Assembly: GCA_902565935.1 (NCBI GenBank)
Contig: CACFGT010000006.1
Location: 1 to 63,531 of the forward strand
DNA length: 63,531 bases
Source of the DNA: an uncultured Pelagibacteraceae bacterium
GTDB taxonomy: Bacteria > Pseudomonadota > Alphaproteobacteria > Pelagibacterales > Pelagibacteraceae
Reading direction: 5' to 3'
In this document: positions 245-40,377 of the stretch, piece after piece
Position numbering within the stretch: position 1 is the first letter of the stretch
Layout of the letters: every line of letters starts with the position of its first letter
The notes under the pieces: model-generated
What the model saw: only the letters and a program-made list of their open reading frames with translations
What the model was told of the DNA's origin: nothing
The model's database searches: none
Program-made: the position numbers and the translations under genes

Positions 245-321
245 TGGTGGGCCCGCCAGGACTCGAACCTGGGACCAATTCATTATGAGTGAACTGCTCT
301 AACCAACTGAGCTACAGGCCC
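245..321 (-). tRNA. tRNA with CAT anticodon (Ile2 or elongator Met)
   Basis: The minus strand folds into a normal cloverleaf of 77 nt including an encoded 3' CCA. The acceptor stem GGGCCTG pairs with CGGGCCC, the D-arm has GG, the anticodon loop is CTCATAA (anticodon at 285-287) and the T-loop is TTCGAGT. A CAT anticodon can belong to elongator Met or to the AUA-decoding Ile2 whose C34 is changed to lysidine by TilS. C4-G69 and C5-G68 in the acceptor stem resemble the TilS determinants of Ile2, which favours Ile2, but Met cannot be excluded by eye. Confidence 0.9.
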
Positions 322-387: not shown

Positions 388-462
388 TGGTGGGCCGTGT
401 TGGTTACGCTCCAACTACCCCTGCAATGTCAATGCAGTACTCTACTATTGAGCTAACGGCCC
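388..462 (-). tRNA. tRNA-Val(GAC) with non-canonical D- and T-loops
   Basis: The minus strand folds into a 75-nt cloverleaf with encoded CCA. The acceptor stem GGGCCGT/ACGGCCC is perfect, the anticodon stem CTGCA/TGCAG encloses TTGACAT (anticodon GAC, 428-430), the variable loop has 5 nt and the T-stem is GTTGG/CCAAC. The T-loop (404-410) is AGCGTAA instead of the near-universal TTCRANY, and the D-loop (443-449) is AATAGTA without the GG pair that normally docks on it. All stems are intact, so this does not look like a decaying pseudogene. It is probably Val, possibly with altered tertiary structure. Confidence 0.75.
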
Positions 463-474
463 AAATAATTAGAT

Positions 475-2301
475 CTAACTTTCTAAGAAACTTTTTAGTT
501 GCTTAGATCTGCTAGGGTGCTTTAACTTTCTTAAAGCTTTAGCTTCAATTTGTCGAATTCTTTCTCTTGTAACAGAAAATTGCAAACCAACTTCCTCAAG
601 TGTATGATCTGTGTTCATTCCCACACCAAATCTCATTCTTAAAACTCTTTCTTCTCTAGGTGTTAATGTTGAAAGAATTTTCGTTGTTGCCTCTCCTAAA
701 TTAGATTTGATTGCTTGTTCCAATGGAGCTAATGCTTTTGTATCTTCAATAAAATCTCCTAAACTGCTATCTTCTTCATCACCAACTGGTTTTTCTAATG
801 ACACCGGTTCTTTTGAAATTTTTAAAACTTTTCTTACCTTATCTAAAGGCATTCGCAGTTTTTTTGCTAATTCTTCAGGTGTTGCCTCTCGACCATATTC
901 ACTAAGTATTAGTCTTTGTGTTCTTACAATTTTATTAATTGTCTCAATCATGTGAACTGGAATTCTGATAGTTCTTGCTTGATCTGCAATTGATCTTGTA
1001 ATTGCTTGCCTAATCCACCAAGTAGCATATGTTGAAAATTTGTAACCTCTTCTATATTCAAATTTGTCAACTGCTTTCATTAAACCAATATTGCCCTCTT
1101 GAATTAAATCTAAAAATTGAAGTCCTCTATTTGTATATTTTTTTGCAATTGATATTACCAATCTTAAGTTTGCCTCAACCATTTCCTTTTTTGCAATTCT
1201 AGATTCTTTTTCACCCTTTTGAACTCTACTAACTAATTTTTTGAAATCAGTCACTGACATTCCTAGTTTATGACTAATCTCAATTAATCTTTCCTTAATA
1301 TTTTTAAATTCATCTTTATTTTTAGAAAAAAAATCTTTCCAGGTAGAATTTGTGTCTAAGAATTTTTTAAGATTTGGATTAATTTCATTTCCTACATAAA
1401 ATTTTATAAATTCACCTCTAGATATTTTATTATCCATAGCAAGTCTTAATAAATTACCCTCAAGTGAGATAATTTTTTTATTTTCCACGTAATGTTTTTG
1501 AACAAGCTCTTCTAGTACAGATGGAGAAAGTTGAAGGGATTTTATATTTTTTAAAATTTCGTCAACTATTTTTTCATAACTTTTTTCTTTTGCAGATGAA
1601 AAGGTTTCTGATTTTAAAACACAATCTAATTTTTCTTTTTGATATCTTATAAGCTTATTATATTCTTTGGTCAAAGATTTTACAGTTTTTAGAACTTTAG
1701 GTTTTATTTCACTTTCCATGGCAGCAAGTGTTGGATTAAAATCGTCTTCATTTTCATCAGTTGAATTTTCCTCTTTATCAACGTCCCCCGAATTTTTTTG
1801 TTTAGCACTTGGGCCTGTAGACTCATCCTCCATATAATTTGTATCAATATCTATGATTTCTCTCACTAAAATTTCTTCTTTTTGCAACTTGTCATCCCAT
1901 TCAAAAAATTGTTGTGCTGTAATTGGACTTTGAGATAATGCAATTAACATAACATCTTTTCCTGCCTCTATTCTTTTTGCAATTGCAATCTCTCCCTCTC
2001 TAGAAAGTAGTTCAACACCTCCCATCTCTCTTAGATACATTCTTATAGGATCATCACTTTTTTCAATTGATTTACCCTCTTCTTTGGAAGATTTTTCTTT
2101 TTTTCTTAAAACCTTATAATCAGATTTTTTTTCAACTAAGGTAATTTTCTCATTAAGAATGTGAATAAAAGCTTGAGCAAGATTTTCATCTGATAAATTT
2201 CTTTTACCTAATGACTTACTTAATTCTTCATGAGTAATGAAACCTCTATGAGTTCCTCTCCCCATTAATCTAGCAAATGATTTAGTAATAATTCTTTCCA
2301 C
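475..2301 (-). CDS. rpoD: RNA polymerase primary sigma factor (sigma-70)
   Basis: This is the housekeeping sigma factor, which directs RNA polymerase to -35/-10 promoters. The 608 residues are close to the usual proteobacterial length. Region 1.1 lies in the first ~80 residues, followed by region 1.2 ([11 protein letters not shown]), a charged non-conserved insert (~130-350), and the hallmark region 2 stretch ([34 protein letters not shown]). The region 4 helix-turn-helix near the C-terminus reads [20 protein letters not shown]. It lies 67 bp downstream of dnaG on the same strand, giving the order yqeY-dnaG-rpoD, a version of the macromolecular-synthesis operon. A GAGTC site at 2318-2322 lies just upstream of the start codon. 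Confidence 0.97.
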
Positions 2302-39187: not shown

Positions 39188-39245
39188 GTTTCACGTAGAA
39201 ACACAATATATAGTAATCCAAAGAAAATTTTACACAAATCGAATC

Positions 39246-39267
39246 CAAATTATTCAATCGTAGGTTG
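39246..39267 (+). repeat. 22-bp intergenic motif, copy 2 of 2
   Basis: Matches 9134-9155 at 20 of 22 positions (core TTATTCAATCG). This copy runs into the -35 box of the predicted ccrM promoter, so it could be an upstream activator site. Confidence 0.3.
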
Positions 39268-39292
39268 ACCCAAGAATCTTTTTAGAGTCTAA
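39264..39292 (+). promoter_or_regulatory. Predicted ccrM promoter with embedded GANTC sites
   Basis: TTGACC (39264-39269), a 17-bp spacer and TCTAAT (39287-39292) form a good sigma-70-type promoter 14 bp before the ccrM ATG. GAATC at 39273-39277 lies in the spacer and GAGTC at 39284-39288 overlaps the -10 box; another GAATC lies at 39240-39244. GANTC is the target of CcrM itself. Confidence 0.6.
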
Positions 39293-39306
39293 TTTATTTT
39301 TAAAAA

Positions 39307-40377
39307 ATGAATTTAGATTTAAAAAATAAATTAATTAATGGAGATAGTTTAAAAGAATTAAAAAAAATTCCTGATGAAACTTTTGATCTAATTTTTGCAG
39401 ACCCTCCCTACAATCTACAACTTAAAAGTGAGCTTACAAGACCTGACAGATCTAAGGTTTGTGCGGTAAATGATAAATGGGATCAATTTGAAAATTTCAA
39501 AAAATATGATGAATTTACTTTCTCTTGGCTAACTGAGTGTAAAAGAATTTTAAAAAAAAATGGAGCAATTTGGGTAATAGGTAGTTACCACAATATATTT
39601 AGAGTTGGAACAGCTATACAAAATTTAGGATTTTGGATTTTAAATGATGTTATTTGGAACAAAAAAAATCCAATGCCAAATTTTAGAGGGACACGTTTTA
39701 CAAATGCTCATGAAACTTTAATTTGGGCATCAAAATCCGAAAAATCAAAATATACTTTTAACTACCAATCCTTAAAGTGTTTGAATGATGATCTTCAAAT
39801 GAGGTCTAATTGGGAATTACCGATCTGTAGTGGCTCTGAGAGACTGAAGAAGAATGGTAAAAAAGTACATTCTACCCAAAAACCAGAGGCCCTACTTCAC
39901 AGAATTTTATTGGCTACTTCGAATAAAAATGATTTAATTTTAGATCCGTTTTTAGGATCTGGAACTACAGCAACGGTAGCTAAAAAACTAGGTAGAAATT
40001 ACTACGGAATTGAAAAAGAAAAGACCTATTTAAAAGCTGCTGAACAAAGATTAAAAGTAACTAAACCTATTGAAGATGATTATTTAGATACCCTGCAAAA
40101 TGGTAGATCAAAACCAAGAATACCTTTTGGCTCATTAGTTGAATTAGGAATAATTAAACCAGGTACTACCATTTTTGATAATAAAAAGAAAATTAATGCA
40201 AAAATCATGGCTGATGGCAGTATTAAACACGCCCAAGCCGAAGGCTCAATTCACAAAGTTGCTGCTACATTACTTGGAGCTGAAAGCTGTAATGGATGGA
40301 CTTTTTGGCACTTTAATTTAGATGGTCGGTCAGTTCCCATTGATCATTTAAGACAGAGATTAATTTCTAATAGTTAA
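39307..40377 (+). CDS. ccrM: Cell-cycle-regulated DNA adenine methyltransferase CcrM (GANTC)
   Basis: CcrM methylates adenine in GANTC and links replication to cell-cycle transcription in Alphaproteobacteria. The 356-residue protein has the beta-class order: catalytic DPPY (32-35, in ADPPYNLQL) first, then the SAM-binding DPFLGSGTT (from 213). The C-terminal ~100 residues form the RAMA-like domain typical of CcrM (RIPFGSLVELGIIKPGTT; WTFWHFNLDGRSVPIDHLRQ). No restriction enzyme is nearby, so it is an orphan regulator. The stop shares TTAA with the convergent monooxygenase gene. Confidence 0.96.
   Translation: MNLDLKNKLINGDSLKELKKIPDETFDLIFADPPYNLQLKSELTRPDRSKVCAVNDKWDQFENFKKYDEFTFSWLTECKRILKKNGAIWVIGSYHNIFRVGTAIQNLGFWILNDVIWNKKNPMPNFRGTRFTNAHETLIWASKSEKSKYTFNYQSLKCLNDDLQMRSNWELPICSGSERLKKNGKKVHSTQKPEALLHRILLATSNKNDLILDPFLGSGTTATVAKKLGRNYYGIEKEKTYLKAAEQRLKVTKPIEDDYLDTLQNGRSKPRIPFGSLVELGIIKPGTTIFDNKKKINAKIMADGSIKHAQAEGSIHKVAATLLGAESCNGWTFWHFNLDGRSVPIDHLRQRLISNS

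Follow-up and report, generated by a model that had tools for sequence, protein, structure and literature searches.

The tRNA-Val(GAC) gene described here very probably encodes an ordinary translating elongator tRNA in which a different set of bases, changing in concert, holds the elbow together. The gene lies in a stretch of 63,531 nucleotides from an uncultured Pelagibacteraceae bacterium; the whole stretch is referred to as the window, and the assembly from which it comes as the source genome.

Results

The tRNA-Val(GAC) gene and its elbow bases

The gene was called by ARAGORN and scored 53.6 bits with the Rfam tRNA family RF00005, for which the gathering score is 29. It folds as a full cloverleaf with all four stems formed (fold z-score, -3.29), so that the three methods agree with a preliminary description of the sequence that had reported four stems and an encoded CCA. 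The loop sequences given there were also confirmed. The features of the locus are as follows.

245..321, minus strand: canonical tRNA-Met(CAT), downstream of tRNA-Val(GAC) (ARAGORN)
388..462, minus strand: tRNA-Val(GAC) gene (ARAGORN, Rfam and fold)
388-390, minus strand: encoded CCA of tRNA-Val(GAC)
404..410, minus strand: T-loop AGCGTAA, with A54 at 410, G55 at 409, C56 at 408, G57 at 407, U58 at 406, A59 at 405 and A60 at 404 (sequence and alignment)
416..416, minus strand: A at position 48, giving A15/A48 at the Levitt position instead of R15-Y48 (alignment and viral comparison)
428..430, minus strand: anticodon GAC (ARAGORN and alignment)
443..449, minus strand: D-loop AATAGTA, with A14 at 449, A15 at 448, U16/17 at 447, A18 at 446, G19 at 445, U20 at 444 and A21 at 443 (sequence and alignment)
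475..2301, minus strand: putative rpoD (sigma-70), named from its sequence and neighbors, directly upstream of tRNA-Val(GAC)

The stop of rpoD lies 12 nt from the start of the tRNA gene, and a tRNA-Met(CAT) near the Val gene was also seen in many of the loci read from genus g1 (see below). A search of the source assembly (95.77% complete) for a further Val-GAC copy found none; a canonical Val-TAC gene is present there. Elsewhere in the window, Rfam matched the bablM sRNA family at 39241-39310 on the plus strand (75.2 bits).

The preliminary description held that the D-loop is without G18G19 and that the T-loop lacks TTC. With the 7-nt D-loop placed in tRNA numbering, this goes too far: G18 has changed to A, and U54 and U55 are replaced by A54 and G55, but G19, C56 and a purine at position 57 (G57) are present. 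The outer pair G19-C56 with purine 57 is therefore canonical, whereas A18 and G55 stand in place of G18-U55, and A54 and U58 in place of U54-A58. In addition, the pyrimidine at position 60 is A, and positions 15 and 48 are A/A. The T-arm, GAGCGUAAC, does not match the motif 53-GUUYRANYC-61 that is given for TruB substrates in a part of PMC7912444. An elbow-less tRNA of the mitochondrial type is excluded by the retention of G19-C56 and by the covariation of the loops in tRNAs of the same type.

Conservation of the altered gene and switching between two states

A BLAST search with the Val-GAC gene gave matches in 29 of 61 genomes, the source included, all of them with genus code g1, which we infer to be Pelagibacter. 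ARAGORN read a tRNA-Val(GAC) in 28 of these 29 loci, the last (L058) being a partial match without a tRNA call. The T-loop was AGCGTAA in 28/28, and the D-loop was AATAGTA in 27 and AATAGAA in 1; the altered loops are thus kept in other SAR11 genomes, a check that had been proposed at the outset. Across the order, an altered T-arm pattern was present in 222 of 397 genomes, namely 220 of the 271 g1 genomes and 2 of the 5 from g7 (per-genus totals are our own tally from the genome table of 397). Such frequency within one genus, together with the recurrence of A18/G55 elsewhere, shows that to call these tRNAs unusual in free-living bacteria was too strong.

Using rpoD as the marker for a tree of Val-GAC loci, we compared 77 distinct rpoD-linked loci, 72 altered and 5 canonical, a ratio that gives no frequency, most loci having been fetched with the altered gene. 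In 64 of the 72 altered loci, a set found by similarity to the gene itself, the 75-nt Val gene was identical to that of the window, although the DNA of the last 900 nt of rpoD had diverged to a median identity of 0.833 and a minimum of 0.786, which indicates purifying selection. Among 12 sequences of three elbow kinds, 252 of 252 stem cells were paired, with changes on both sides in 52 cells.

These data bear on the reading that Val-TAC reads all four GTN codons, so that Val-GAC has drifted and its loops are broken. A canonical Val-TAC is indeed present, GTC is rare in the 31 long open reading frames of the window (43, versus 385 GTT, 204 GTA and 75 GTG), and Val-GAC is not found in every g1 genome: of 10 g1 genomes picked because the altered pattern was absent, 5 had a canonical Val-GAC, and among the rows listed for 5 (G093, G143, G161, G166 and G231) there was no Val-GAC candidate. 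The Val-GAC isoacceptor may thus be of low importance, and the suggestion in the preliminary description that the tRNA is dispensable may hold to that extent, but it would leave the elbow unexplained. Decay, however, is hard to reconcile with letter-for-letter identity in 64 of 72 genes across deep divergence and with the compensation of all stems, and it is largely refuted by the sole tRNA-His genes with the same elbow type; we find it scarcely credible. The same identity and compensated stems, with the covariation of positions 18 and 55, argue strongly for coordinated change rather than decay, as had been proposed from the window alone.

The canonical form was found in the sampled genomes of g5, g6 and g9 to g12, in 5 of 6 sampled g8 genomes and in 6 of 6 sampled genomes of family f2. 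On the rpoD tree of the 77 loci, the five canonical genes were scattered, with five state changes, at least three of them forced by starred branches; the changes were no fewer than with shuffled labels. All five canonical genes occupy the same rpoD-linked place, and parts of the gene body are common to canonical and altered Val-GAC. Shared bodies fit loop switching on one gene and also replacement by recombination. On this sequence evidence, the elbow state appears to switch as a set, with canonical relatives on record, and the five g1 genomes with a canonical Val-GAC indicate that the altered state is not required. A normal TTC loop in relatives had been named as an observation that would count against an unusual elbow; such loops do occur, in 5 of 77 loci, in other genera and in f2, but conservation extends to the altered form as well.

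Sole tRNA-His and tRNA-Phe genes with the same elbow type

ARAGORN reported no tRNA-His in the source genome. A tRNA-His(GTG) was present among the 30 Rfam tRNA hits (L029, complement 1498-1571; G000:C12:28887-28957), and its loops, AATAGTA and AGCGTAA, are exactly those of the window Val gene. It is the sole tRNA-His found there; A18/G55 occurs in 2 of the 30 tRNAs (Val and His), and the other 28 are canonical. Genome G063, a single contig of 1,320,649 bases rated 99% complete, gave 32 tRNA hits, all of which were read. Three carry A18/G55, namely, the only tRNA-His (AATAGCA/AGCGTAA), the only tRNA-Phe (AGGAGTA/TGCGAAT) and Val-GAC (AATAGTA/AGCGTAA); Thr-GGT combines G54/G58 with G18/U55 (AATGGCA/GTCAGTA), and the remaining 28 are canonical. 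In the truB-positive G061, His alone is altered (AGTTAGTTA/TGCAACT), and in G037, of the outgroup family, Thr-GGT alone (AATAGTA/AGCGTAA; L395). Over these four SAR11 genomes, the 122 tRNAs comprised 115 with G18/U55, 7 with A18/G55 and none mixed.

The tRNA-Thr(GGT) of G037 was also missed by ARAGORN, and both this miss and that of the source tRNA-His are probably due to the altered elbow. Annotations made with ARAGORN would be without these two genes, and our ARAGORN-based counts are slightly biased through missed His and Thr genes of the altered kind. Within g1, His genes were canonical in G012, G066, G067, G069, G082, G093, G143, G161 and G197 and altered in G062, G063 and G221. The 54/58 pair is not uniform among altered genes: the Phe form, the His form of g5 and the Val form of L101 retain U54-A58, whereas the window gene has A54/U58.

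His and Phe tRNAs are needed by any cell. Since sole His and Phe genes carry A18/G55, gene content implies that this elbow type must work in translation, and of the three options entertained in the preliminary description, the sequences best support that of a functional tRNA whose elbow is new. A second option was a non-translational job, for example, that of an amino-acid donor avoiding EF-Tu. The peptidoglycan tRNA-Gly of staphylococci is such a donor, and altered elbow bases are a hallmark of donor tRNAs; in Streptomyces, there are also tRNA-Gly(TCC) genes that combine A18/G55 with a T-loop of 6 nt. Against this, tRNAs for His, Phe, Thr and Val share the elbow type, some of them being the only tRNA of their kind in the genome, and viral contigs carry it in many isotypes. 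Nothing pointed to a non-translational role, and we regard one as highly improbable.

Three further observations concern these tRNAs. The tRNA-His genes of g1 are of two kinds (L134-L141, L313 and L155-L158), with a D-stem of GCTC or one resembling GTGA; the latter kind resembles other SAR11 tRNAs and is perhaps a remodelled tRNA. A G1-U72 pair was seen in the tRNA-His genes of the source genome and of g5. The T-loop GTCAGTA (G54/G58 with A60), another variant at 54/58, accompanies a normal G18/U55 in the Thr(GGT) of G063 (L315) and of contigs L190, L207, L216, L221, L244 and L250 of the named-genome scan.

Concerted change at positions 18 and 55 and at 54 and 58

We examined 118 distinct tRNAs from loci that did not come from the A18/G55 scan. 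The set is limited to ARAGORN-readable genes, some from loci fetched with an altered gene or T-arm as the query, and held 99 tRNAs with G18/U55, 19 with A18/G55 and none mixed. A scan of named genomes was conditioned on the joint presence of A18 and G55 and is uninformative on frequency; it returned at least 120 stretches. These came from Pelagibacteraceae (Val and Phe), with the same Val gene in Pelagibacteraceae contigs and the Phe form in one labelled Candidatus Pelagibacter ubique, from candidate-phyla bacteria (His, Phe, Thr and Val), and from Elusimicrobia, Verrucomicrobiota, Chloroflexota, Streptomyces and some archaea.

Outside arrays, A18/G55 seems to recur in Phe-GAA, Thr-GGT, His-GTG and Val-GAC across unrelated phyla, all of them with G34, a post hoc pattern seen in sequences selected for A18/G55. 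Arrays of tRNAs binned as Verrucomicrobiota (L184, L203, L248 and L262) hold many tRNAs with A18/G55 or odd elbows and are possibly phage or other mobile DNA. The Streptomyces tRNA-Gly(TCC) genes were found at L185, L197 (Streptacidiphilus), L199 and L231; related repeated copies (L175 and L279) received no ARAGORN call.

Viral contigs provided a larger sample. Two gapped patterns gave at least 253 matches, of which at least 202 formed cloverleafs by our own script, at least 170 of them distinct and of many isotypes. With patterns for the T-arm only, leaving the D-loop free, distinct cloverleafs numbered at least 99 for AGCGTAA, at least 132 for AGCGTTA and at least 322 for the canonical control TTCGAAT. 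Under a neutral rule by which GG is read as G18 wherever it occurs, the altered T-loops among the matches listed had A18 in 217 of 231 cases, GG in 13 and an unreadable D-loop in 1; among the matches listed for the control, 318 of 322 had G18. The 13 GG-holding loops among the matches listed (ACCTAGTGG, 7; AATAGGA, 4; TAATAGGA, 1; ACAAGGGC, 1) all have a preceding AG that can be read as A18 G19. At 15/48, the control was mostly Watson-Crick (G-C in 165 and A-U in 127 of the 322 matches listed); the altered viral set had A/C in 112 and A/A in 31 of the 231 matches listed, the rest being other combinations.

The fairest sample is the viral bystanders, that is, the other tRNAs of the same viral loci after removal of the scanned loops, taken as strict cloverleafs with C56, U8, A14 and A21 required. 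The 1,048 distinct bystanders had G/U at 18/55 in 962 cases, A/G in 69, G/C in 10, A/U in 3 and other or unreadable combinations in 4. Positions 54/58 likewise changed in concert, with UA in 901, AU in 52, AA in 42, GG in 35, CA in 12, CC in 4, GA in 1 and UC in 1 of the 1,048. A60 tracked a changed 54/58 pair: it was present in 38 of 38 tRNAs with AA and G18/U55 and was rare with UA (21 of 859). Position 18 was read by our own rule, and the count of A18/U55 among 1,342 strict viral tRNAs depends on it, being 51 if the first A or G before a G is taken and 5 if GG is preferred; GG is present in 46 of those 51 D-loops, e.g., AGTAGGTA. Fisher tests were extreme, but the sequences are related and the P values overstate their independence, so that the claim rests on the pattern. 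In both the set of 118 tRNAs and the viral bystanders, positions 18 and 55 change together, as the purine-trap rule is said to require.

A different anatomy was also considered, in which the D- and T-loops form a short double helix, with the base before 18 facing 59, A18 facing U58 and G19 facing C56, so that A18 does not face G55. Helices of this kind were reportedly found in selected suppressor tRNAs by Kotlova et al. in 2007. The bases at 18 and 58 of the window gene, A and U, are complementary, and, in the AG reading, the base before 18 covaries with 59 in a Watson-Crick-like manner (A/U 101, U/A 99, U/U 29, G/U 1 and A/A 0 among the 230 altered matches listed). However, a prediction recorded beforehand, that C58 would bring G18, failed: tRNAs with AGCGC(T/A)A numbered 2 in 209 matches, few as two cases are, and both had A before G. 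Furthermore, A18/G55 occurred with U58 in 122, A58 in 38, G58 in 25 and C58 in 4 of 189 tRNAs (the U58 rows include scanned loops), and G18/U55 occurred with U58 in 50 cases. Because the C58 prediction failed and A18/G55 is found with several bases at 58, we placed the double helix second to a model in which A18 is matched with G55, and consider it unlikely.

Loss of truB

The TruB family (PF01509), the psi55 synthase, was detected in 14 of 14 control genomes but not in the source genome, G063 or G012. Over the order, it was found in 56 of 397 genomes, comprising 42 of 53 in f2 and 14 of 73 among members of the window's family outside g1 (g5, 4/4; g6, 4/4; g7, 5/5; g11, 1/1). It was not found in g1 (0/271), g8 (0/50), g9 (0/7), g10 (0/1) or g12 (0/1); many of the genomes are incomplete, and the genus totals are again our own tally. 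According to part of PMC7912444, other psi55 enzymes have not been found in Bacteria. TrmFO gave no match over the cutoff in 5 of 5 genomes.

The gene order in G061 and G189 is infB-rbfA-truB-rpsO-pnp. In 8 of 8 truB-less loci (from g1, g8, g9, g10 and g12), rbfA adjoins rpsO with no truB match, and the infB-rbfA-rpsO-pnp neighborhood is present on the contig in whole or in part. Set side by side, L326 and L338, with truB, and L339-L346, without it, show a clean loss of truB from the operon. The source genome's own rpsO was not found, so that its truB loss rests on its relatives.

We asked whether loss of TruB relaxed the need for U55 and so caused the exchange, a proposal about cause and not about a different anatomy. 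It is consistent with the absence of PF01509 from g1, g8, g9, g10 and g12 and with the clean operon gap in 8 of 8 loci, and G063 has 3 A18/G55 tRNAs among its 32 and the source genome 2 among its 30, whereas two truB-positive genomes have a single one each, among 32 and 28 tRNAs. On the other hand, a rate cannot be derived from as few as four genomes, most tRNAs of truB-less genomes still have U55, and A18/G55 is found in other phyla too. A18/G55 tRNAs are also carried by truB-positive g5 (His), g7 (Val) and f2 (Thr), and because of these, the sequences indicate that truB loss is not required for the swap. As the cause it is therefore doubtful, if possible; it may have made the A18/G55 swap cheaper.

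Origin of the gene

A phage origin of the Pelagibacter Val gene was considered and rejected. A search of 50,697 phage records at an E value of 1e-5 gave no hit for the gene, and the closest viral tRNAs of our set had only 73.6 to 79.7% identity over 48 to 73 nt, bar one 24-nt stretch at 95.8%. No A18/G55 tRNA was found in the stretches read of Xanthomonas phage X1 and Aeromonas phage 31, which were reached through an Ile query; the Gln gene of phage X1 has the T-loop ATCGATA. Gene conversion among Val, His and Thr genes as the source of their shared loops is unlikely, as the D-stems flanking the shared 7-nt D-loop differ; the source-genome His and one Val type have a whole T-arm in common.

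An apparent second Val copy in G069 (L316; G069:C1:397100-397400) proved to be a 3' part only, from GAGTA through CCA, on the same contig as the full gene and far away from it. Neither ARAGORN nor Rfam made a call at this partial copy, although the Rfam blank is weak, since Rfam there also missed L314, a tRNA-Leu by ARAGORN. An integrated element might account for the partial copy, as what is left of its attachment site.

Discussion

We propose that the elbow of this tRNA-Val(GAC) is built on two features that its sequence retains, the solvent-exposed G19-C56 pair and purine 57, which intercalates. A18 with G55 would stand in for G18-psi55, and A54 with U58 for the U54-A58 reverse-Hoogsteen pair; each exchange is concerted in the data, and the pairing geometry is what we would predict from it. 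The correlations among viral tRNAs suggest a subtype with A60 in place of a pyrimidine, a base 5' of A18 that co-varies with 59, and the usual loss of R15-Y48. The L-shape would survive, and with it the face that RNase P, the ribosomal L1 stalk and other readers of the elbow recognize. The gene is under strong purifying selection, with swaps between its two states made as a set, and the same elbow type seems to serve tRNA-His and tRNA-Phe that are presumably essential because they are sole.

A broader proposal, which we favor by a little over its negation, is that this is a second self-consistent natural elbow, consisting of A18/G55, a 54/58 pair that is either swapped or like-with-like, A60, a relaxed 15-48, and a contact in which 59 co-varies with the base before 18. 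It would be an on/off module that is used in sole His and Phe tRNAs of dominant ocean bacteria from a lineage without psi55 synthase, is common among phage tRNAs of many isotypes, and is partly missed there by a standard gene finder.

Teaching presents G18-psi55 and U54-A58 as nearly universal, and tRNA gene finders and engineering rules are shaped by them. Since the substitute elbow recurs in other Pelagibacter tRNAs, some of them sole, and in many phage tRNAs, a contact that textbooks treat as universal seems to have a second natural solution. The data also suggest that many phage tRNAs use an elbow that cannot be modified by enzymes acting on U54 and U55. A conserved natural alternative in sole tRNA genes provides matched tRNA pairs, such as the Pelagibacter Val-GAC in both states, which could test whether what an elbow must supply is its geometry with an exposed 19-56 face, or instead certain bases and modifications.

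The A18/G55 swap was probably already known as a possibility. Doyon, Zagryadskaya and Steinberg (2004, J Mol Biol) are said to have described a "specific purine trap" in selected Escherichia coli suppressor tRNAs, in which 18 is G if 55 is U and A if 55 is G; their laboratory clones reportedly mostly kept U54-A58. Those suppressors are reportedly like the window tRNA in having A18 with G55; here, in contrast, the genes are natural, some are sole, and A54/U58, A60 and a co-varying 59 are also present. A full-text literature search that covered few subscription papers listed none that we recognized as dealing with this elbow, with the A18/G55 exchange or with the loss of truB in SAR11, and the natural, conserved use of A18/G55 in sole cellular tRNAs, together with A54/U58, A60 and a co-varying 59, was not found in print in the literature searched.

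Sections of PMC4810234 and PMC7912444 present G18-U55 and U54-A58 as conserved. Compared with the canonical bacterial elbow of G18-psi55, G19-C56 and U54-A58 in those sections, the window tRNA has in common the cloverleaf, U8, A14, A21, G19-C56, purine 57 and CCA. It differs in A18, G55, A54, U58 and A60, does not keep R15-Y48, and has neither a U55 for conversion to psi nor a U54 for methylation. The eukaryotic initiator tRNA, with A54-A58, is likewise a natural exception at position 54 with a different 54-58 pair, but in the part of PMC7912444 that deals with it the 54-58 change is described alone, whereas the window tRNA also differs at 18/55 and has U at position 58. Metazoan mitochondrial tRNAs without an elbow, as treated in part of PMC4810234, share with the window tRNA a departure from the G18/U55 rule; they lose the elbow structure, whereas the window tRNA keeps G19-C56, its loop lengths and conserved loops.
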